Below are positions 8,377 through 32,619 of a stretch of 32,619 bases of DNA, piece after piece. The position numbers were made by a program, and so were the translations under genes. The first letter of the stretch is position 1; each line of letters begins with the position of its first letter. A model generated the notes under the pieces. The model did no database searches. It saw nothing but the letters and a program-made list of their open reading frames with translations, and had not been told where the DNA came from. This stretch comes from Anaerolineae bacterium. Its GTDB lineage: Bacteria; Chloroflexota; Anaerolineae; Aggregatilineales; J027. The DNA is taken from positions 1 through 32,619 of the forward strand of contig JAJTXY010000041.1 of assembly GCA_021463865.1 (NCBI GenBank), read 5' to 3'.

Positions 8377-9429
8377 CTAAACCGATTCAGACTTGCGGCC
8401 AAGCCATAATTGGATGAAGGTGAAAATAAACAGCACGCTGCCTAGTACCATTGAAGCCGCTGCTGCCAACCCCCGCCGAGGAATTTGATTGCGCATCCCG
8501 GTCTCGTAAATATATTGCACCATGTATTTGGTAGATGTGCCCGGTCCACCCCCAGTTAACACAAACACTTGGTCAAAGACCTGCACCGCCCGTATCAGGG
8601 CCAAAACCAAGACAACAAACATGGTCGGCATCAACAGAGGCAGCGTAATGAAGCGGAAGCTCTGCCAAGGGCTTGCGCCGTCAATTGACCCTGCCTCGTA
8701 CAACACCCCCGGAATGGATTGCAGGCCCGCCAGCAAAATCAGGGTGAAGAATCCCATTTGCGCCCAGATGCTAATCATAATGACCCAAAAAGTGGGCCAA
8801 TCTCCTTTTAACAAAAACAGCACCGGGTCGGCTTCATATTTAGGGTCAATCTGGGCCAATACCCCATTCACAACGCCATATCGTTGCAAAATCCAGCGCC
8901 ATATCAAACCCACCACCACTGGCGAAAGCAGCACAGGATAAAAATAGACACTTCTGAAAAAGCCTCGTCCCACAATCTCCCGATTCAGCACTAACGCGGT
9001 AATCAGGGCCATAATCACCATGCCACCGACCTGAAAAAACACAAAGACGATGGTGTTGTAGACAGCCCGCCAAAAAAAGTCTTCGTCACAGGAGTTGGGG
9101 TCGGTAAAATCGTCGCAATCCGCTAGGATTTCGTAGTTATCGGTTCCAACAAAGGTGCGGTCTTCGGGGAACAGCGCAACTCCGCTGGTCATCGAATAGT
9201 AGAAATTCAGCAGCATGGGGAAGATGACAAATATCCCAAAAATCGCCATATTGGGGAGTAAAAAGAGATAGGCCATACGCCGGAAGCCGACCCAACGTTG
9301 AATCGGGTTGATGATGATTTCCAACGCGATCATCAGGCCACTATAGATGCCAATCAGCAGGGCCTCAGCCCCGTGTCGGATGGCAGAAATCCATTCTCCA
9401 ATTGAGCGCGGACGGTTGGCTTCCATCAT
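8377..9429 (-). CDS. sugar ABC transporter permease, MalF/UgpA type
   Basis: Inner-membrane partner permease of the same CUT1 importer (350 residues) with about six helices and the EAA loop EAGSIDGASPWQSFRFITLPL. The open frame runs upstream to 9549, but that part is the right end of the IsrB element read in another frame, so the native start is taken as the ATG at 9429 or the adjacent one at 9426. The A of the first ATG is also the last base of the isrB stop codon (TGATG), so the two genes now overlap by one base. No good ribosome site lies immediately upstream; a GGAGA at 10728-10732, on the far side of the insertion, may be the displaced native one. Confidence 0.9.
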   Translation of the reverse strand: MMEANRPRSIGEWISAIRHGAEALLIGIYSGLMIALEIIINPIQRWVGFRRMAYLFLLPNMAIFGIFVIFPMLLNFYYSMTSGVALFPEDRTFVGTDNYEILADCDDFTDPNSCDEDFFWRAVYNTIVFVFFQVGGMVIMALITALVLNREIVGRGFFRSVYFYPVLLSPVVVGLIWRWILQRYGVVNGVLAQIDPKYEADPVLFLLKGDWPTFWVIMISIWAQMGFFTLILLAGLQSIPGVLYEAGSIDGASPWQSFRFITLPLLMPTMFVVLVLALIRAVQVFDQVFVLTGGGPGTSTKYMVQYIYETGMRNQIPRRGLAAAASMVLGSVLFIFTFIQLWLGRKSESV

Positions 9430-10496
9430 CAAATGATAGGCGCGGCTACCCCTGCCTTGCGGGATGGGGAGGAAGCGCCATGCTCCTTTCGGATTCTCCA
9501 ACTGGCAGTGATTAAAATAGTGCAATCCTCTGGTTGGGCGTTTTGACAAAGACGCTTACCTGAATCCATGTCGTGGAGACTCATACGACCCTTGCTTGAG
9601 CCGCCCACGTAACACAGACCGTACTTGGGATGTTTGACCCATGCCCCGCGTTTAATGCCCATACTGAGCGTGCCGCCATAGGGCCGACGTTCGCCGCCTT
9701 TGGCATATTGCAGGGCGTGAAGTTGGCGGCGGTGGAAACGCAGCCGAACGAGATAGAGCATGGCGGTGTTATCCACTTCGACATGACCGCCGACAAACCA
9801 ATTGGCTAAAATCCAACTGTCTACACAATGGGCTTCAAACTTGTCTGACATTTTGTTTTTGCTTTTAATCAAACCAAGTTCGCCGCGCATGGTATAGGTA
9901 TCGAAACCTGATTTTGTCCAGACTTCGCCGAGTTTCCGCAGTTCTTGGTAGAACCAATGTTTGCCGACTTCGAGAGGGCTAAAACGCTTGTTCCACTGGC
10001 GTTTGCCCTGCTTAGTCACAGCAGCAATGTCCTCTACAACAATGGCTTGAACTGGGTAGTAGCGGGCCAGCCAAGTACACAGGCGCAGTTTCCAGCCCCA
10101 TCGGGCACGAGTGGAGGGTGGGAGACGGGTCTTGCCTTGATGACGATTCTGGCGACACTTACGATAACGGGTCTTGCGATAACGTCGTCCACGTCGCATC
10201 ATGGTACTTGTCTCTTCAGCCTCTTTCACCCATGTCACCGCATCGGCTTGGATATTGAGGTAAGTATGCGAGGCTGATTTAACCGTGTAGGCTTCCTTTT
10301 TGGAGCCGGGGTCAATGCCAACGGCAATCGGTTGGATATAGCCATCTTCACGGTCAAGCAGTTGGATATAGAATAAACCTCTGTCAAAGCGCCGCACCGC
10401 ACGGCCCTTAGCAATGAGCTTATTGGCTCGCTTATGGGTCGTGGGCATCAAGGGTTTGCCCGTCCTGCCGACCACTGGTACAAACTTTTGAGACAT
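9429..10496 (-). CDS. isrB: IsrB RNA-guided nickase (HNH-less IscB relative)
   Basis: A 355-residue RRXRR-family protein. It has the N-terminal PLMP motif (15-18), then RuvC-I GIDPGSKKEAY with Asp62, an arginine-rich bridge helix RRGRRYRKTRYRKC (101-114), RuvC-II AIVVEDI with Glu155, and RuvC-III AHCVDSW with Asp226. Only about 65 residues separate RuvC-II and III, with none of the HNH residues that IscB carries there, so this is IsrB. The RuvC triad is intact. Known IsrB proteins nick the non-target DNA strand guided by an omega RNA encoded just upstream; matching RNA signals are present here. AGGA lies seven to eight bases before the ATG. The last about 25 residues are encoded by the element's right-end hairpin, and the stop TGA overlaps the permease start codon. 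Confidence 0.9.
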   Translation of the reverse strand: MSQKFVPVVGRTGKPLMPTTHKRANKLIAKGRAVRRFDRGLFYIQLLDREDGYIQPIAVGIDPGSKKEAYTVKSASHTYLNIQADAVTWVKEAEETSTMMRRGRRYRKTRYRKCRQNRHQGKTRLPPSTRARWGWKLRLCTWLARYYPVQAIVVEDIAAVTKQGKRQWNKRFSPLEVGKHWFYQELRKLGEVWTKSGFDTYTMRGELGLIKSKNKMSDKFEAHCVDSWILANWFVGGHVEVDNTAMLYLVRLRFHRRQLHALQYAKGGERRPYGGTLSMGIKRGAWVKHPKYGLCYVGGSSKGRMSLHDMDSGKRLCQNAQPEDCTILITASWRIRKEHGASSPSRKAGVAAPII

Positions 10497-10719
10497 AGAC
10501 CATTCCTTTGCAGTATTTAACGTCTCTACAGACTATGCAACTGATCCCTTCGCCACTGACCGTGACAGGGAAGACAGACTAGGGAGGCATCCGCCATGTG
10601 TCTTGGGCTACCACGCCCGACGGCTAGTTAAAAGCTGGCTAGTCAACACTTGCGTTGTGGGTTGCAGATTGGTCTTCGCTTCCTCACAAGCCGCCGCCTT
10701 TAGGCGTGGGGTTGTTGAC
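9433..10719 (-). mobile_element. IsrB/omega RNA insertion (IS200/IS605-like, no TnpA)
   Basis: A compact unit of about 1.29 kb made of an omega RNA region and an isrB gene, with no TnpA transposase, so it would depend on one supplied in trans. It is inserted between the binding-protein gene and the first permease gene of one ABC operon. The ends are estimates: the 5' edge is set where GTCAACAACCCC begins (minus strand, 10719) and the 3' edge just after the GC-rich hairpin and a short tail. The bases after the 3' edge read TTGA, which agrees with the NTGA-type motif I recall for a characterised IsrB. Exact borders need an empty-site comparison. Confidence 0.7.
9439..9474 (-). other. right-end hairpin of the IsrB element
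   Basis: On the minus strand TCCTCCCC is followed by a short GC-rich spacer and AGGGGTAGCC, giving an imperfect CCCC/GGGG subterminal hairpin like those at IS200/IS605-type ends. It lies inside the isrB reading frame and ends about six bases before the permease start. Confidence 0.5.
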
Positions 10720-10735
10720 TAAGTAGGTCTCCATC
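10500..10735 (-). ncRNA. candidate omega RNA with 5' guide region
   Basis: The noncoding stretch immediately 5' of isrB has omega RNA hallmarks. Read on the minus strand it begins GTCAACAACCCC, then has the stem ACGCC-TAAA-GGCGG (about 10696-10710), further complementary blocks, the motif GCGGATGCC (10586-10594) that matches the GCGGAUGCC I remember from the OgeuIscB omega RNA, and ends just before the isrB ribosome site. In this family the guide is the host sequence flanking the element at this end, here the bases 5' of 10719 on the minus strand (GGAGACCTACTTA side). Length of about 220 bases plus guide fits. Exact 5' end and secondary structure are not determined. Confidence 0.72.
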
Positions 10736-10821
10736 AATTTTAAAATAATAGTTCAGCGAATTTAATAACATGGGCGGTGGGAAATAGGCACTTTGCGACC
10801 ACCCCCACGTTTATGAAATCA

Positions 10822-10892: not shown

Positions 10893-12203
10893 TTAGTTCT
10901 GGGCTTCTGCTAACTGCTCATCAATATCTTCTTGGATACGTGCGATGGCATCATCAAGGCTCAATTCACCCGTGATCGCCTGTGTCAAGCGGTCACGAAT
11001 GGCATTAAATAGTACCGAGTTATAGCGATAGGCCTGCAAATCAAAGGCCAGCGGCTGAATCTTTGGAACCTGAGCCGTCCACATTTCGAGAGCCGCCTTC
11101 GCTACATCAAGGTCAGTCTCGAACTCGACGCCAGTGCTGGCAATCCCGATATGGGCCGGGACAAACAAGGTACGGGCATGGAATTCGCGCAGGACTTCTT
11201 CGCTGGCGAGGTATTCCATAACACGGGCTACTTCTTCGGGGTGTTCGGTGGTGTTGATAGCTACCGTCGCCGCGCCACCGGGCATCCCTGTGCAGCCGCC
11301 GGGGCCACAGGGATTGGGGACAACTTCCCACGTAAAGGCATCACCAATCGTGTTGGCAAACTGCGGAACCTGCCAGCTACCAGACATATAGAAGACCACT
11401 TGGGCATTGGCAAATTCTTCGTTAGGTGCAGCATAACCTGTCGCGCCTGCCCACACGTCGTACAGCATCGTGCCGTCTTGGTTCCAGCCAACGAACAACT
11501 CCGCCATCTGACGGAAGCCTTCATCTTCTAGCAGGGCAGGGTAGCCTTCTTCATCAAAGAAGGTCGCACCGAGGCTGACCGCCGGACCAGCGAAGCGATG
11601 ACCACTGCGATCCATTGCCATCGCGGTGACGCCGGGGCCAACCGCTTCGGCCACTTGGCGGGCGGCTTCGGCCCATTGTTCCCAAGTGACTTCATCAGAG
11701 GTGTCACTGGGGACTTCTACACCCGCCTGTTCAAACAGGGTACGGTTGATGTACGGGCCAGTGATGGTCAGTTGGTTTTGAATCCCATAGATGCCTTCGG
11801 TGTCGCCTTCAGGACGCAGCCATGCCAGATAGGGGCCAAAGTTCTCTTCCCAATAGGCCGGGTCACTAAGGTAGGGGCGCAAATCCAGATAGTATTGCGA
11901 CAGACCACCAAGATTGGTCACACGCGCAATGTCGGGGCCTTCGCCAGCTTCCAACTGGACGGGCAGGTTTTCTTGAATACCAGCGGCATACGGTACGGTA
12001 TCAATCACCACCTTGATGTCGGGGTTTTCGGCTTCAAAACGATCCAGCAGGTCACGCAGGACAGTGCCTTCAATCCCGTCATCATACCAAGTGATACGCA
12101 GTTCAACCGGGTCTTGGGCCTTTGCCTCTCCAGAACTTGCGATAATCGGCAAAACCAATGCAACTAACAAGACTAGCACAAAAATATTTCTCAATTTTTT
12201 CAT
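10893..12203 (-). CDS. sugar ABC transporter substrate-binding protein
   Basis: A 436-residue family 1 (MalE/UgpB-like) extracellular solute-binding protein that captures the imported sugar outside the membrane. A signal peptide is clear: MKKLRN, a hydrophobic stretch to about residue 22, and a likely signal peptidase I site near AKA-Q (about 29-30). There is no lipobox cysteine, so it is not an obvious lipoprotein. The motifs GPDIARVTNLGGLSQY and the hinge-type C-terminal helices fit the family. AGGAG lies nine bases upstream of the ATG. It follows the isomerase gene after 149 bases and precedes the permeases, which are now separated from it by the IsrB element. Ligand cannot be read from the sequence. 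Confidence 0.93.
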   Translation of the reverse strand: MKKLRNIFVLVLLVALVLPIIASSGEAKAQDPVELRITWYDDGIEGTVLRDLLDRFEAENPDIKVVIDTVPYAAGIQENLPVQLEAGEGPDIARVTNLGGLSQYYLDLRPYLSDPAYWEENFGPYLAWLRPEGDTEGIYGIQNQLTITGPYINRTLFEQAGVEVPSDTSDEVTWEQWAEAARQVAEAVGPGVTAMAMDRSGHRFAGPAVSLGATFFDEEGYPALLEDEGFRQMAELFVGWNQDGTMLYDVWAGATGYAAPNEEFANAQVVFYMSGSWQVPQFANTIGDAFTWEVVPNPCGPGGCTGMPGGAATVAINTTEHPEEVARVMEYLASEEVLREFHARTLFVPAHIGIASTGVEFETDLDVAKAALEMWTAQVPKIQPLAFDLQAYRYNSVLFNAIRDRLTQAITGELSLDDAIARIQEDIDEQLAEAQN

Positions 12204-23539: not shown

Positions 23540-25975
23540 TCACACAAGTCCAGCCCCATCAAGATGATGCTGGTCGGCTTGAATTTCGCCAGCCACGAGA
23601 TTAACTCGCCGTGACCCACGTTTGGGCTGGGCAGTGAATTCCGGCGGGGCAGGGGCATAGTCACGGAAGGGCGAACGCTGGTAGATGTTGAGCCAAGCGC
23701 CTTTGCAATTGGTCACGAGCAGGGCAACAGGGTTGCGCACTTTGTCACGGCGTCGTTGATAGAGGCGAAGCAGATAATTGACCTGTTTTCGCACGATATT
23801 AGGGCCATAAGTGTCCACCAAACGGCGGGCATTGGGCAGGCTCAAATGGTGGTCGGCTAGGACAATGGCATTGATACGGGTATAGGCATCCTGCGCCACA
23901 CTTTCCAAATCGGGATCGGGCAGGGGCTTACGGAAATATCGCTGCGGACTCATCCGGCGACTGTGGATCTGTTCCACTGGGTCAGTGAAATCCTTGATGT
24001 AGATCGTGGTTGGGGGCATATCCGAAAATTGTGCCGCTTTGCTTGGATTAAGTGTCCCCAATTTGACCACTTTCAGGGGCTTTGACTCTAAGGATGGCTT
24101 GTTTTCCGATGCTCCATTTTTGACCTGTTCGATAGATTTAAAATTAACGCTTCGAGTCTTTGTAAATACCTCTTTCGATGAGTCCTTTTTTCGCTGCTCG
24201 ATAGGAGTAGATATGGGGGTTCGATTATGGGAAAGCTGCCCTTCGATAAGCCGTTTTTTGTGGGGTCGCAGAACGGGCCAAAATTCCAGCTTACGATAGC
24301 CCGTTGGTGGCTCTGGAAGGCGGGTTTCGGCCTCGACCCCGTACCAATAGAAATTGGCTTTCTGTTGCACAAACCAGATAGGCTGACCCGCTTTGCGATA
24401 GCGTTCGGCAATCTCGCGCTTGCAGGGGTAACATTTGCCATTCGCGGCCATCAGAAAACAGCCGCGTGGCTTGTCGAAGTGCCATTCGTCGTTATCAGGG
24501 AGACCGCCTAACAGCACATCATTTACCTGTTTGGCGTGATAGGTCGGGGCAGAATGTAGGTGCGGGTCATTGCGTAGGTAGTTGTAGATGGTGCGCTCTC
24601 CCACATTGAGCCGATGACCGAGCCATGCCTGCGAATAGTGCCCCCGCCGCCGCCGGATCAGCCGTTGATTGAGTGCTTCCCGATAGCTCTTGCTGCTGAT
24701 GAGGTCAGCCCATTGAATCAGGTCGCCATAGGTGGGTTTGATGCCCAGTCGTTCGCATAATTCGTTGCTATCCGGCAGGGTATAGAGCATGGGTGGGCGA
24801 GAATACCCCCTCTCCCTGCCAACCCTCTCCCCCTGCGATGCTGACATAGCCAGAGGGTTAGAGATAGAACTCAGTGAACTTCGTTCTGTCGGAAAATTGG
24901 TCACAAAAGTTGATTTCATGGGGTTTGGGCTAAAAATCAAGTTGTCATCAGGGAGGCGGACGCGCAAGGCTTGGCTAATGCTGTCGCGGCTCATCACCCC
25001 TTGTAACAGACTCTCCGCTTCTCTAATAGTGAATGACGCCCCCGGCTTGAGTTGGGCCAATCCCAAACCCTCTAATAAACGGAGGGCCAATGCCCCGCCC
25101 GAAATGTGCAAAATGGCCTCGCGCAGACTGTTGGGTAAACGATGACCGAGCACGCCGCGTCGAGGTTGGGGGGGACGTTTAAAAGCGCTGGCAATGGTGG
25201 CATGGCCTTCTCGATAGCGTTGCGGCGGTGTTTCGGCAGGATGATTGACCCCGGCAGGATACCACACAAAGGCTTCGAGCAGGGTCTCGGTTGTCCATTC
25301 CTGCGTGTAGCCAATATCGCGCAGTTCGCAAGCCGTCTGATAGAGCGCCTTGTTGCGGTGTCCATGCTGATGTTTGATGTGGGCATGGAAGAGACGCAGT
25401 GCATCTTCAGGCGTATACAGCGGCAGATCATCCGAGGGTAGGGGATTTTCGTTTAGATTCAGCGAGGGGGACAGGAAAGCCAAGACTTCATTCAACTGGG
25501 TTTCGCTGATGGAGGCAATCGGCTGATCTTGAATAATCGTCCACTGCACGCCGCCGATGACCGATCCCGGCCCGACCACATAACCACCATCGCCCTTTAA
25601 ATCCGCGCCGGGGAGATGGCGACCTTGCACGGGAAAATGCGTGCGCCAATAGACATGAAAACCGCGCCGGGACTGCACAATTTGCGTTTGCAGCAGGTGG
25701 GGGAATCGTGCCGCGAAGCTCAGGAATAGGTCGGTATCATCGAAGTCGAGGACGGTGAGGCCGGAAATTTGACCGCAGATAATCCCATAGGCGGAAGGGG
25801 AGTCGAGTTCAAACCACTGCTGAATTTCGACAGACGTGGGCAAGTTCGTCTGGTAATTTTTCCACTGGATCGCAGGTTTTTTGCCATTTGCCAAATCCAA
25901 ACCACCCACCAACGGAATGACACTAAACCCGTTGAATAGAGCGTTTTGTAGCGGATCGGCTAGGCAGGTTTTCAC
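23540..25975 (-). CDS. PrimPol replication protein (bifunctional primase/polymerase)
   Basis: An 811-residue protein. Residues about 8-180 are a bifunctional DNA primase/polymerase N-terminal (AEP-type) domain: VLDFDD with Asp77/Asp79, SRRGFHVYW with His107 and DLKGDGGYVVGPGS (125-138). A helical segment follows (about 185-260), then a winged or homeodomain-like helix-turn-helix (LGHRLNVGERTIYNYL, about 455). The last 130 residues include RNPVALLVTNCKGAWLN, a motif like those in replication initiators. No Walker A helicase motif is seen, unlike many plasmid and phage PrimPols. Start is GTG with AGG five bases upstream. Such proteins usually belong to plasmids, phages or integrative elements, so this gene marks the edge of mobile DNA. 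Confidence 0.83.
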   Translation of the reverse strand: MKTCLADPLQNALFNGFSVIPLVGGLDLANGKKPAIQWKNYQTNLPTSVEIQQWFELDSPSAYGIICGQISGLTVLDFDDTDLFLSFAARFPHLLQTQIVQSRRGFHVYWRTHFPVQGRHLPGADLKGDGGYVVGPGSVIGGVQWTIIQDQPIASISETQLNEVLAFLSPSLNLNENPLPSDDLPLYTPEDALRLFHAHIKHQHGHRNKALYQTACELRDIGYTQEWTTETLLEAFVWYPAGVNHPAETPPQRYREGHATIASAFKRPPQPRRGVLGHRLPNSLREAILHISGGALALRLLEGLGLAQLKPGASFTIREAESLLQGVMSRDSISQALRVRLPDDNLIFSPNPMKSTFVTNFPTERSSLSSISNPLAMSASQGERVGRERGYSRPPMLYTLPDSNELCERLGIKPTYGDLIQWADLISSKSYREALNQRLIRRRRGHYSQAWLGHRLNVGERTIYNYLRNDPHLHSAPTYHAKQVNDVLLGGLPDNDEWHFDKPRGCFLMAANGKCYPCKREIAERYRKAGQPIWFVQQKANFYWYGVEAETRLPEPPTGYRKLEFWPVLRPHKKRLIEGQLSHNRTPISTPIEQRKKDSSKEVFTKTRSVNFKSIEQVKNGASENKPSLESKPLKVVKLGTLNPSKAAQFSDMPPTTIYIKDFTDPVEQIHSRRMSPQRYFRKPLPDPDLESVAQDAYTRINAIVLADHHLSLPNARRLVDTYGPNIVRKQVNYLLRLYQRRRDKVRNPVALLVTNCKGAWLNIYQRSPFRDYAPAPPEFTAQPKRGSRRVNLVAGEIQADQHHLDGAGLV

Positions 25976-26443: not shown

Positions 26444-26565
26444 TTTAAAGAGAATGTTGAATAGCTTGTCAAAGTCAAAATAGAAGTCAGCGCCCCCCCG
26501 CCGCAAAGGGTGTAGAAATTGGGTAATCTTGCTGTTGATGATTGCAATCAACAGGAGAGCATTTG

Positions 26566-29502
26566 GTGAGACGCAGATGGCATTCGGAGGAACTGATAGC
26601 CAACTTCAGTTTATCGGCTGAGGACAGAGCGTGGTTAAGTGGTCATAGTGCCGCCGTTCAGCTTGGGCGGGCCGTGTTGCTGGCGTGTATGCATTACGAG
26701 GGGCGATTTCCGAATCAAGCGCATGATGTTTCGGTCGTTGTGGTTGAATATCTTGCGCAACAATTAGGATTAGCGGCCAGTGAGTTTGCCCAATACGATT
26801 GGTCAGGCAGGCGTGGTCAGATGGATCGGGAGGCGATCCGCAAGCGGTTGGGTTTCCGGATCATCCGGCGTGAAGATTATGCAGACTTAGCAAGATGGCT
26901 GAGCGATAATCAGTTGCTCCATGAAACACATGAGATGGGCGATCTGCGCAACGCGCTGTTGGATCATCTACGGGGTCAAGGTCTTGAACCGCCATCGGCC
27001 AAGCAGCTTGACCGCCTGATCCGAACAGGACTGCATGAATTTGAGATGCGCCTGTTTCAAAACACGAGTGAGCGATTACCCGCAAAATCTAAAGTTGCGC
27101 TGGATGCTCTCGTGTACACCGATGATGCTGAAGGGGAATATCGTCGCTCGGACATCGCCGAATTGAAAATGGATTCCGGGAAGTTAGGGGTGAAGGGCAT
27201 CCTACAAGAAATTGAGCGTCTGTCGCGATTACAGCAGGTGGAACTTCCGGATGATCTCTTGGCAGAACTGACCCCCAACATCATTGGGAGATATGCCCAA
27301 CGCGTGCTTGCTGAAGCGCCACGCGAGTTACGACGGCACCCATCGGCCGTGCGCTACACGCTGTTAGCCTGCTTTTGTTGGCAGCGAAGGCAGCAAGTCA
27401 CCGACAATGTGGTTCGGTTATTGATCCAGATCATTCACCGTATGAATACGCGTGCCGAAACAAAAGTGAAAAAGACATTCATTGAAGATGTGGTGCGGGT
27501 AACAGGCAAACACCAACTGCTCTACCAATTGGCACAGGCGGCGTTGACTGACCCGGAAGGCTCGGTGCGGGATGTGATTTTTTCGGTCGTGGACGAAGAA
27601 ACACTGCGTCGACTGGTGAAAGAGTTCAAAGCATCGGGAGACTACGAGGAGCAGGTTTACCGTACCCTGCGCGGTTCCTACAGCCAGCATTACCGTCGGA
27701 TGGTTCCCGAAATTCTGAAGGTGTTGACCTTCCGCTCCAACAACCGAGCTTACCAGCCGGTCATTGAGGCCTTGGAATTGATCGAACGCTATGCTAAAAG
27801 CCGCCAGATCACCTACCCGGCACAGGAGGTCGTCCCGATTCGGGGTGTCATTCGGCCCGGTTGGCAATCGATGGTGGTTGAAACCAATGCTGAGGGGCGA
27901 TCCCAGATCAACCGCATCAATTATGAGATGGGGGTGTTGAGTTCATTGCGTGATCGGCTACGCAGCAAGGAAATCTGGGTCGAGGGAGCGGATCACTTTC
28001 GCAACCCGGACACCGACTTACCGCAGGATTTTGAGGCCCATCGGGGACATTACTATGAGACATTGAATCAACCACTGGCAGCAAGCACATTCACCAGCAC
28101 GCTGAAAAGGGCCATGCACCAGTCATTAGTTCAATTCAATGAGCGCTTACCCAACAATCCGTTGGTACAGATTCTGCAACGCCCCTTGGGATGGATCAGC
28201 GTATCACCCCTGCCCGCCCAACCGGAACCCACTCAACTGCGTTATCTAAAGGCGGAAATTGAGCAACGCTGGTCAATCGTCAACCTGCTGGACATGCTCA
28301 AGGAGACGGATTTACGGGTTGGGTTTAGTCTGGAGTTCAAGAGTACGGCTTCGCGTGAGGCCCTTGACCCAGCTACCTTACAAAAGCGATTATTATTGTG
28401 CCTATACGCCTTAGGCACAAATACGGGACTAAAGCAGGTCAGCATGGGCGATCATGGCGAAAGTTACGAGAGCCTTCGGTATGTCTATGAGCGTTATATC
28501 ACCCATGCTTCGTTGAGAAATGCGATTGGTCAGGTGGTGAACGCCACACTGGAGGTACGGCAGCCGCACATCTGGGGGGAAGGCAGCATGGCCTGTGCAG
28601 CGGATGCCCGCAAGTTCGGTACATGGGGCGAAAACCTGAAAACCGAGTGGCACACGCGCTATGGTGGACGGGGCGTGATGATCTACTGGCATGTGGAACG
28701 GGGATCAACAGCCGTTTATTCCCAGTTGAAGTCACCCTCATCATCCGAAGTTGCTTCCATGATTGAAGGACTGGTACGTCACAGCACCGACATGGACCTG
28801 AACCGTACCTATGTCGATTCACATGGGCAAAGTGAGGTGGGTTTTGCCTTCTGCTATTTGCTGGGCTATGACCTACTACCGCGCCTGAAGAATCTTCATA
28901 ACCAGCGATTGTCGTTGCCTGAACGTGGCGAGGGAAGCGCTTACCCCCATCTACAACCGATCTTGACCAAGCCGATTCAGTGGGAGTTGATTCAGCAGCA
29001 GTATGACCAGATGATCCGCTATGCAACCGCCATCCGCTTAGGAACAGCGGAAACGGAAGCAATCCTGCGGCGCTTCACACGGGCGAATGTCCAACATCCA
29101 ACTTATCAGGCACTGGCGGAGTTGGGCAAGGCGGTGAAAACGATGTTTTTATGTCACTATCTGGACTCGGAAGACCTGCGGCGCGAAATCCACGGGGGCT
29201 TGAACATCATCGAAAGCTGGAACAGTGCCAATCGTTTTATCTTCTACGGGAAAACGGTGGAGTTTGGCTCGTCGCAGTTGAAAGTGCAGGAGTTGGGAAT
29301 GCTGGCGTTGCATCTGCTGCAAAACAGTCTGGTCTACATGAACACTTTGATGATCCAGCAGGTGTTGTCGGACAGGGATTGGTATCAACGGCTGACAACC
29401 GCCGATTGGCGTGGCTTGACCCCCCTTTTCCATACCCATGTCAATCCCTATGGGCTAGTCCGCTTGGATATGCGCGAACGATTGCCTTTTTTGGTAGCTT
29501 AA
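26566..29502 (+). CDS. tnpA: Tn3-family transposase TnpA
   Basis: A 978-residue DDE transposase that cuts at the inverted repeats and makes a cointegrate by replicative transposition. The N-terminal DNA-binding region ([16 protein letters not shown]) and the C-terminal catalytic core are intact: the first Asp in CAADARKFG, then [17 protein letters not shown], the second Asp in [29 protein letters not shown], and the Glu in [18 protein letters not shown] choose the GTG at 26566, which has AGGAG eight bases upstream, over a TTG at 26542. Length matches the family (about 950-1010). A distantly related partial copy is present at the window's right edge on the other strand. Confidence 0.95.
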
Positions 29503-29601
29503 TCTCAAAAAGTATACCTTGTGAGCTATTGAAAATTGGGGTCTCATTTCATGTCTCATGCTATATTTCTTATCAGGTCTTAAAGAGAGTGAGACATCCC
29601 T
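29503..29601. promoter_or_regulatory. res-like recombination site
   Basis: The only noncoding gap within the transposon lies between tnpA and tnpR and contains ATGTCTCA (29551-29558) and its exact complement TGAGACAT (29590-29597), plus a further GTCTCAT at 29541. Resolvase genes normally sit beside their res site, and these paired half-sites overlap the tnpR start, so autoregulation is likely. At 99 bases it is shorter than the three-subsite res of Tn3. Confidence 0.6.
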
Positions 29602-30150
29602 ATGGCATTGATTGGCTATGCACGGGTCAGTTCAGTTGGGCAGAATTTAGCGGTGCAACTCGACAAACTCCACGCCTGTGACAAGATTTTTGAGGAGAAG
29701 AAAAGTGCAGCATCCGGCACACGTCCACGTTTGGAAGCCTGCCTGGAATACGTGCGTGAAGGGGATACCTTGGTGGTGACCCGCCTCGACCGACTCGCTC
29801 GCTCGACATTGCACCTAGGTCAAATCGCCGAGGCGTTGCAGCGTAAGGGGGTGAACTTGCGCGTGATCGACCAGCACATTGACACCTCAGATGCCACCGG
29901 GCGGTTGCTGTTTAATATGCTCGGTGCGATTGCTCAATTTGAGACCGAAATCCGCGCCGAACGCCAAGCTGACGGCATCCAGAAGGCAAAAGATCGCGGG
30001 GTTCAATTCGGCGCGAAACCCAAGCTCACGGATGAACAAATTGTTGAACTGCGTCAACGTCGGCAAAACGGGGTACTTATTCGAGAATTGATGCAAGACT
30101 ACCGTATTTCGAAGGCGACTCTCTATCGCTATCTCGACCTATCTTCTTAA
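29602..30150 (+). CDS. tnpR: serine resolvase TnpR
   Basis: A 182-residue small serine recombinase that resolves the cointegrates made by TnpA. Catalytic Ser10 in YARVSSVGQN, the arginine pair in TRLDRLARS (about residues 61-69) and the C-terminal helix-turn-helix LMQDYRISKATLYRYL (162-177) are intact. Length is typical of resolvases. It lies between the res-like site and the right inverted repeat, the stop being two bases before the repeat. Invertase activity is less likely given the Tn3 context. Confidence 0.95.
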   Translation: MALIGYARVSSVGQNLAVQLDKLHACDKIFEEKKSAASGTRPRLEACLEYVREGDTLVVTRLDRLARSTLHLGQIAEALQRKGVNLRVIDQHIDTSDATGRLLFNMLGAIAQFETEIRAERQADGIQKAKDRGVQFGAKPKLTDEQIVELRQRRQNGVLIRELMQDYRISKATLYRYLDLSS

Positions 30151-32111: not shown

Positions 32112-32619
32112 AGGGTAACATCCGTGCTACGAGCCGCCACTTTTTTAAAGAAATTTAAAGAATCATCCGTCGCGGTGGTATTGCTGGGCTTTAGGCCGGA
32201 ACTGTCAAAGGGATGCGTTGGGCCATATCCAGCTCAAAGAGGCCATAGGGATTGATATGGCGGAAGAATAAGGGAGTCAAGCCACGCCAATCTTCAAGGG
32301 TCATACGCGCATACCATTGGGGCTGAGTCAAGAGCTGTTGGAGCATCAAGGTGTTGATGAAAACCAAGCTGGATTGAAGCAGATGCAGGGCCAACATAGC
32401 GGTTTCTTGTTCCTCAAAGCGATTGGTCGAAATCTCGCCGGTTTTACCATAGAAAATGAAGTGATTGACGCTGTTCCAGTTCTCAATCACGTTCAAACCC
32501 TCGTGAATTTCGCGCCGCAAGGTCTCATACCAAATTCGGGTAAATAGTAGGTGTTTAAGCATAGGCGGGCCACCAATGAAAACAGGTCGCAGAACGAACG
32601 AGTTCAGGATGGTCTTGGA
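32112..32619 (-). mobile_element. second Tn3-family element, partial (runs off window)
   Basis: The end of another Tn3-like transposon lies in the opposite orientation. The probable inverted repeat starts near 32112 (GGGTAACATCC), and its inner end CTTTTTTAAAG matches the same feature of the first transposon (CTTTTTAAAG), while the rest differs. It interrupts the IS630 transposase gene. The exact edge is uncertain by a few bases. Confidence 0.7.
32191..32619 (-). CDS. tnpA: Tn3-family transposase TnpA, C-terminal part
   Basis: About 140 C-terminal residues of a TnpA, continuing past the right edge of the window. The catalytic Glu region [20 protein letters not shown] and the terminal [21 protein letters not shown] align with the complete transposase at 26566 but with many substitutions, so this is a different lineage, not a recent duplicate. 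The stop codon lies about 80 bases inside the element end. The frame remains open to the last base, but the most upstream 20 residues do not align clearly with the other TnpA. Confidence 0.82.

Follow-up and report, generated by a model that had tools for sequence, protein, structure and literature searches.

The window analysed here is a stretch of 32,619 nucleotides (contig JAJTXY010000041.1 of assembly GCA_021463865.1, positions 1 to 32,619) from an Anaerolineae bacterium of the phylum Chloroflexota. It contains a sugar transporter operon in the order binding protein, permease, permease, all on the minus strand, and between the first two genes lies a small element encoding IsrB, a putative RNA-guided nickase with kinship to the ancestors of Cas9 (Table 1). 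A sequence-only reading of this DNA had placed such a unit inside the operon, splitting the binding-protein gene from its permeases on the same strand, which the Pfam annotation bears out; its limits for the unit (9429-10735) had to be corrected, as the ends aligned with those of related copies (11 sequences at the left end and 10 at the right, window included) set the element at 9430-10719, in agreement with the exact empty sites of two sister copies. Two features were not part of that reading: the element abuts the start codon of the permease gene, and its right end is structured and carries a Shine-Dalgarno (SD) sequence of its own. The insertion point lies between the SD of the permease gene and its ATG, and this host SD (GGAG at 10729-10732, which in the joined site precedes the ATG by 9 nt) now stands about 1.3 kb away, inside the predicted guide of the IsrB system. 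The stop codon TGA of isrB (9431-9429) shares its A with the permease ATG (9429-9427), forming TGATG.

Table 1. Features of the IsrB element and its insertion site (positions in the window; aa, amino acids)
Feature	Position	Strand	Basis or remark
Complete IsrB element, 1290 nt	9430..10719	-	From GTCAAC (left end, 10719) to the base before ATGA
isrB, 355 aa	9429..10496	-	RRXRR, DtIsrB match, fold
Omega RNA (HEARO) scaffold	10495..10719	-	RF02033 and covariation on 25 sequences
Predicted 20-nt guide, equal to the host leader of the permease gene	10720..10739	-	Flanks; length as given for DtIsrB in the main text of PMC9581776
Element-borne Shine-Dalgarno GGAG within GAAAGGAG	9483..9486	-	12 nt from ATG with the hairpin skipped
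Right-end hairpin	9439..9479	-	Outer stem GGCGC (9479-9475)/GCGCC (9443-9439), TTCC, inner hairpin, pyrimidine-rich return
ATGA at the right end: predicted target-adjacent motif and permease start codon	9426..9429	-	
ABC sugar permease, 350 aa, start ATG at 9429, host gene	8377..9429	-	BPD_transp_1
Solute-binding protein, upstream gene of the same operon	10893..12203	-	SBP_bac_1, SBP_bac_8

Identity of the nuclease and its RNA

The window element is an IsrB element without an HNH domain, as had been claimed, and both its protein and its RNA belong to kinds that are already known. The isrB gene, taken from the list of open reading frames of the window, matches Pfam RRXRR with an E-value of 3.8e-33, and the NCBIfam IscB model covers residues 8-158 only, with 95 bits vs a cut-off of 175. 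Its top solved relative by sequence is DtIsrB of Desulfovirgula thermocuniculi (PDB 8DMB; E 6.7e-39, residues 5-299), and an AlphaFold model built with 36 window and locus sequences as input (mean pLDDT 82) retrieves the same structure, 8dmb, first in a fold search of the PDB (TM 0.77/0.82, 33% identity), followed by IscBs. The PLMP domain, the bridge helix and RuvC I-III with the acids D, E and D, all of which had been recognised from the letters, are found in the alignment and in the match to the 8dmb fold, and D62, E155 and D226 are invariant among 36 aligned IsrBs (alignment A4, for which sequences with a stop in their matched part were either omitted or trimmed). Between RuvC II and III there is no HNH insertion: the protein has 355 aa, the linker is short like that of DtIsrB, and the model leaves no spare stretch for such a domain. 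The alignment and the structure prediction which the sequence-only reading had called for are IsrB-like, and none of the findings it had named as counter-evidence turned up.

DtIsrB, as described in the main text of PMC9581776, shares with the window protein the PLMP domain, the bridge helix, the split RuvC and the part at the C-terminus interacting with the target-adjacent motif (TAM), besides the lack of HNH, a size of about 350 aa, an upstream omega RNA and a TAM of the NTGA type; what separates the two is an identity of 33% in the structural alignment. The same text gives NTGA as the TAM of DtIsrB, with ATGA among the TAMs tested, a guide length of 20 nt and an IF3-like PLMP domain. In the window an NTGA-type motif on the 3' side of the target is seen as ATGA, a genomic inference which extends to 68 of 82 related loci, and the window IsrB would presumably nick the non-target strand under RNA guidance. 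The element further resembles the IS200/IS605 family in its subterminal hairpins and in leaving the target unduplicated at the two sister copies for which empty sites exist.

A structured RNA with a GCGGATGCC motif had also been proposed upstream of the gene, and both the HEARO model of Rfam (RF02033) and covariation agree with it. The proposed covariance-model search, run on 1.8 kb, gave a match over the full model (1-211) with 34.2 bits and an E-value of 6.7e-5, which is less than the curated gathering threshold of 83 bits and hence absent from a gathering-level listing. Common to HEARO and the window RNA are the left-end helix, the GGATGC core and the position before a nuclease gene, the low score being where they differ. 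In an alignment of 25 sequences, for which no shuffle control was made, 37 of the 48 predicted pairs show a double change.

Sister copies and empty sites

Homologues were collected from 101 kin genomes including the window's own (7 with a match at E 0.001), from 400 genomes across the phylum (6 matching at E 1e-30), from a scan of genome contigs (best 80 of 165 kept) and from a scan of viral contigs (39). Among the kin genomes IsrB occurs in that of the window (G000) and in G003, G004 and G005; the last is a draft genome with 18 IsrB/IscB-like matches, some of them fragments of the C-terminal part only.

Two copies can be compared with uninterrupted alleles. A second copy in the window's genome (87% identical, 1288 nt) precedes a NifS-like cysteine desulfurase gene, and the orthologues of this gene in G001-G004 (87-96% identical) have the same leader joined directly to the ATG. 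The copy of G003 sits before a PBP2-like gene, which is free of an insert in G000, G002 and G004 (96-98% identical); in those genomes the two flanks are directly contiguous, with no base missing or repeated where they meet and only small differences in the leader. In both cases the element thus lies exactly between the SD with its spacer and the ATG, and no bases were duplicated or deleted at the point of insertion. The PBP2-like gene carrying the insert is the single close copy in G003 (the next has 33%), and each of six relatives has one match at E 1e-100; the gene is therefore probably needed, and thus probably still expressed.

A third copy in the window's genome (L233, G000:C31:37360-37681) measures 322 nt and has no isrB. 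Only two parts of the window element are recognisable in it: the omega RNA (element 1-208, 87%) and a terminal piece (element 1229-1289, 82%) that comprises the SD, the hairpin and the end itself. AGGAG stands on one side of this copy, and on the other the ATG of a kinase-like frame of 252 codons with histidine-kinase matches (HATPase_c just above the cut-off, HisKA below). Read in this way, each of the three copies in the genome would precede a start codon. As an orphan omega RNA, this copy could use IsrB from other copies. A fourth match in the genome, at C57, comprises 30 nt.

The position of the window copy could also suggest a domesticated regulator of the sugar transporter operon, acting through binding of IsrB and omega RNA or through a switch in the right-end hairpin, and its orientation inside the operon, the TGATG overlap and the retention of all three RuvC acids would fit such a role. 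The site, however, is not conserved: the orthologue of the permease gene in G005 (L171, 64%) has no insert, and a binding-protein-like stop is followed there, by eye, by GGAG-TCTAAC-ATG. The two other copies of the genome stand at unrelated genes, and the catalytic residues are intact, unlike those of the known dead regulators of the TnpB kind. Domestication of the window copy is therefore unsupported, and we consider it very improbable.

Start codons as insertion sites

After removal of 13 duplicate loci 126 homologues were left, and 123 after three more with less than 150 nt downstream had been dropped. Right ends could be placed with confidence in 83 of these (40 without), of which one lacked an ATG or GTG, leaving 82 with ATG/GTG 3-18 nt behind; left ends were missing in 14 of the 82, and among the remaining 68 three with short flanks were dropped, which gives 65 loci with both ends. 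These counts use a finder with a threshold of 12 that includes an SD term, three earlier automatic finders having misplaced some ends. Directly behind the right end (n=82) stands ATGA in 68 loci, ATGG in 8, GTGA in 4, and ATGC and ATGT in one each. The first report on HEARO, of 2009, is said to have described insertion at ATGA or GTGA.

According to gene calls on the joined flanks, 34 of the 65 loci lie at a called start (30 exact, 4 near), 16 are intergenic and 15 genic, whereas ATGA sites taken as a null from the same DNA away from its edges (n=2383) fall at starts in 84 cases (3.5%), between genes in 350 and inside genes in 1949 (82%). The resulting p-values, which assume independent insertions and rest on our own simple gene caller, are 5e-32 overall and 1e-13 among non-genic sites; with one shared insertion removed (n=64: 33 start, 16 intergenic, 15 genic) they are about 7e-31 overall and, for the 33 of 49 non-genic sites that lie at start codons vs 19% expected, 4e-13. 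Start insertions among the 65 loci are distributed over Chloroflexota and other phyla (9/12), Poribacteria (17/37) and phage contigs (8/16). Within 17 nt of left flank, a host SD (GGAG or GAGG) occurs in 16 of the 33 start events, in 1 of the 16 intergenic and in 4 of the 15 genic ones (random 17-mers: 7.7%).

How much of this pattern is due to selection has to be asked. An ordinary IsrB element with an ATGA target, whose start positions are the survivors of purifying selection and whose right-end motif serves transposition alone, would account for the strong depletion of genic insertions (15 of 64 vs 82% of the null sites), and NTGA is already known as a TAM (main text of PMC9581776). Selection against genic insertions nevertheless explains only part of the pattern. 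Start codons are still enriched when non-genic sites alone are counted, and separating an SD from its ATG should do a gene no less damage than an insertion into its coding region, so that such gaps would not be favoured over plain intergenic DNA unless initiation is restored by the right end. We therefore regard this explanation as quite unlikely.

Active targeting of start sites, in which the transposase or its single-stranded substrate prefers translation-initiation regions (an AG-rich leader followed by ATGA) and the ribosome-binding site at the right end is secondary, would be compatible with the element being tolerated through that site. The narrow choice of tetramers (68 of 82 ATGA, then ATGG and GTGA) and the SD in nearly half of the left flanks of start events speak for it; on the other hand, left flanks share by eye no fixed motif beyond this SD tendency, and intergenic and genic events have the same tetramers, yet the SD is rarer there. 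Such targeting appears unlikely to us.

Annotated records offer a view independent of our gene calls. Matches were found in 25 phage and plasmid records, of which seven were examined; in six a gene follows IsrB on the same strand, and in five of these the annotated start lies, by eye, at the right end (Leptolyngbya, Stanieria, Dolichospermum and two related phages of Microcystis, MaMV-DC and LMM01), while in the seventh record, Calothrix plasmid 2, IsrB is followed by no gene on its strand. Among ten phage-contig proteins encoded behind the element, five match PHROG, including head morphogenesis, DNA polymerase and baseplate hub proteins. In the two Microcystis phages the left-end motif (GTCACTAACCCCGCCCTAAAGGCG and variants) is repeated several times in tandem just upstream of the omega RNA (L222:1160-1330 in MaMV-DC, L225:1226-1330 in LMM01), in an array-like manner with short unlike stretches between the repeats.

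The right end: hairpin and Shine-Dalgarno sequence

The consensus right end consists of a GGAG-like SD, an outer stem, TTCC, an inner hairpin, a pyrimidine-rich return, the closing outer stem, about 8-9 nt and the ATG. Alignment A3, which contains 58 of 69 loci and the window (59 sequences; 11 loci were excluded for doubtful ends or right ends resembling kept ones), has standard pairs in 86% of the pair cells vs 56% when shuffled, a percentage inflated at the outer stem because this stem served as a search criterion. The covariation score is 0.710 vs 0.171 for shuffled and at most 0.140 for slid alignments, and 223 cells vs 66 in shuffles show a double change; that all pairs do so at least once (13/13) is little informative, since shuffles give 11.3.

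For counting the SD itself, a finder without an SD term was used (threshold 10.5, which the window copy and the second copy of its genome fail to reach); it reaches the threshold in 72 of 123 real ends vs 27 of 490 control windows. GGAG, GAGG or AGGA stands at most 10 nt before the stem in 57 of the 72 right ends, vs 5.2% in isrB coding sequence, and ATG or GTG follows 3-18 nt behind the hairpin in 69 of the 72, vs 145 of 360 shifted windows. Measured without the stem-loop, SD and ATG are 8-9 nt apart in 34 of 56 cases. A looser motif is present in 73 of 81 right ends and absent from 8, a count which is partly circular because that set of ends was found with an SD term. In predicted folds the SD motif is unpaired with a probability above 0.5 in 46 of 55 sequences. 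TTCCTCC, conserved by eye inside the hairpin of alignment A3, is complementary to the preceding GGAG, so that an alternative fold hiding the SD, perhaps a switch, is conceivable.

The ends of IS200/605 elements carry hairpins, which would suit the ordinary element discussed above. Against it stands the recurrence of an SD directly before the ATG in other elements. In related genomes there are IscB-like elements (L008-L031), so called because they are similar to the window protein only over roughly the first half; they have right ends similar to those of IsrB elements, ending at ATG(A), and differ in length, with 396-448 aa from the start of the match to the stop, unlike the 355 aa of the window protein. 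Fifteen of 16 such loci had a right end marked by hand: in 5 of the 15, GGAGG precedes the ATG by 6-8 nt, and an open frame of at least 60 codons runs from the marked ATG in 9. Some copies in the large genomes G457 and G463 (L038, L040-L042) have, by eye, GGAG about 5 nt before the ATG.

A transposon carrying its own ribosome-binding site?

Taken together, we read the window element as an IsrB transposon that sits between SD and start codon and is kept tolerable by a portable ribosome-binding site, a reading to which we would assign a probability of roughly 0.78. The sequence itself shows the identity of the element, its limits, the insertion between SD and ATG, the enrichment at start codons and the conserved hairpin with its SD. 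We see in the locus a non-autonomous element of the IS200/IS605 type, composed of isrB, an omega RNA and a hairpin at either end. Transcripts of the host would pass through the element and yield the omega RNA, whose 5' end, the guide, would therefore be the host leader, and the TAM ATGA would be the start codon plus one base. Loaded with such a guide, IsrB could nick the uninterrupted allele, in which guide and ATGA are adjacent, and spare the occupied one; nicking and homing of this kind would favour keeping or restoring the element. At the other side, the right end would substitute for the displaced SD with an SD of its own, followed by a hairpin over which ribosomes could pass and by some 9 nt of spacer up to the ATG. 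Ribosomes would then start at the old ATG, either from the right-end SD or by re-initiation after isrB, which the overlap of the isrB stop with the permease start makes possible in the window copy. For the IsrB family as a whole, the hairpin with its SD may thus render start codons tolerated sites.

Several observations weigh against this reading and should be kept in mind. Almost half of the events (31 of 64) lie away from a called start, 15 of them inside called genes, and the caller behind the enrichment is a simple one; in Calothrix plasmid 1 the annotated start is, by eye, off the right end. Fifteen of the 72 right ends have no strict SD motif before the stem, the start AUG is predicted to be only moderately open (mean unpaired probability 0.61; above 0.5 in 38 of 55), and the conserved SD-like motif could be a signal for the transposase or for RNA processing. 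The HEARO score is low by the standard of the curators. In the joined site of the isrB-less copy the frame stays open for 33 more codons upstream, so that a true start behind this copy is likely and not certain. An argument from essential genes, dnaN and ligA, had to be dropped, as four dnaN above the cut-off and two ligA are present in the respective genomes.

If the portable ribosome-binding site functions as proposed, the persistence of IsrB elements, without a transposase gene in this sample, would be explained: an insert of 1.3 kb uses the one spot of a gene at which the protein can stay unbroken, and may itself restore translation. There would also be a natural reason for the NTGA TAM, natural guides would be predicted to be host leaders, and the right end would represent a compact mobile ribosome-binding module. 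A broader proposal, of which we are about half persuaded, is that IsrB/HEARO elements as a class are transposons of translation-initiation sites: the start codon serves as TAM and the host leader, SD included, as guide, transcription from the host promoter supplies the guide RNA, and a portable ribosome-binding site, presented by the structure of the right end, keeps the invaded gene translated. In this case a guide-loaded nickase would be aimed at initiation regions by construction, and the likeness of the DtIsrB PLMP domain to IF3, as put in the main text of PMC9581776, might be more than coincidence.

Titles and abstract openings yielded no paper that describes, for IsrB or IscB, insertion at start codons or a ribosome-binding site at the right end, which is not to claim that none is in print. 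The main text of PMC9581776 does not contain the term 'start codon' and discusses, in the passages on Shine-Dalgarno sequences, that of isrB itself only; the excerpts of PMC13180657 and PMC9755519 mention neither feature. The nearest idea is that of the IStrons, as outlined in the excerpts of PMC4227781, where an IS insertion is likewise made harmless at the RNA level; this is achieved there through self-splicing by a group I intron, whereas for the IsrB element we suggest a replacement ribosome-binding site.

Transposase and mobility

The statement that the element comes without a transposase holds, none being encoded in it. In the window's genome no Y1 transposase exceeds the family cut-off, one weak match reaching 21.4 vs 23 bits, and none is above the cut-off in G003 and G004 either; the copies in these three genomes may therefore be immobile now. 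In each of 12 other IsrB genomes chosen for testing, one or more Y1 transposases are present, and the element would presumably be mobilised by TnpA from elsewhere. According to the excerpts of PMC9755519, only few HEARO nucleases stand near TnpA. An autonomous unit of IsrB and TnpA was considered and rejected, as a phmmer search with the TnpA of locus L097 over the translated loci (flanks up to about 3 kb) matched L097 alone. This TnpA is an IS200 tnpA product by NCBIfam with, by eye, a tnpB-like frame behind, and the IsrB element lies at the start codon of the tnpA gene, so that from L097:4052 onward one RNA-guided element is found inside another.

Other features of the window

Beyond the operon, the window contains a Tn3-family transposase (986 aa) together with a serine resolvase at 26542-30150, and by eye another frame resembling a Tn3 C-terminus at 32191-32562. 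Near these Tn3 genes a primase-polymerase (Prim-Pol) protein of 811 aa is encoded at 23540-25975(-).

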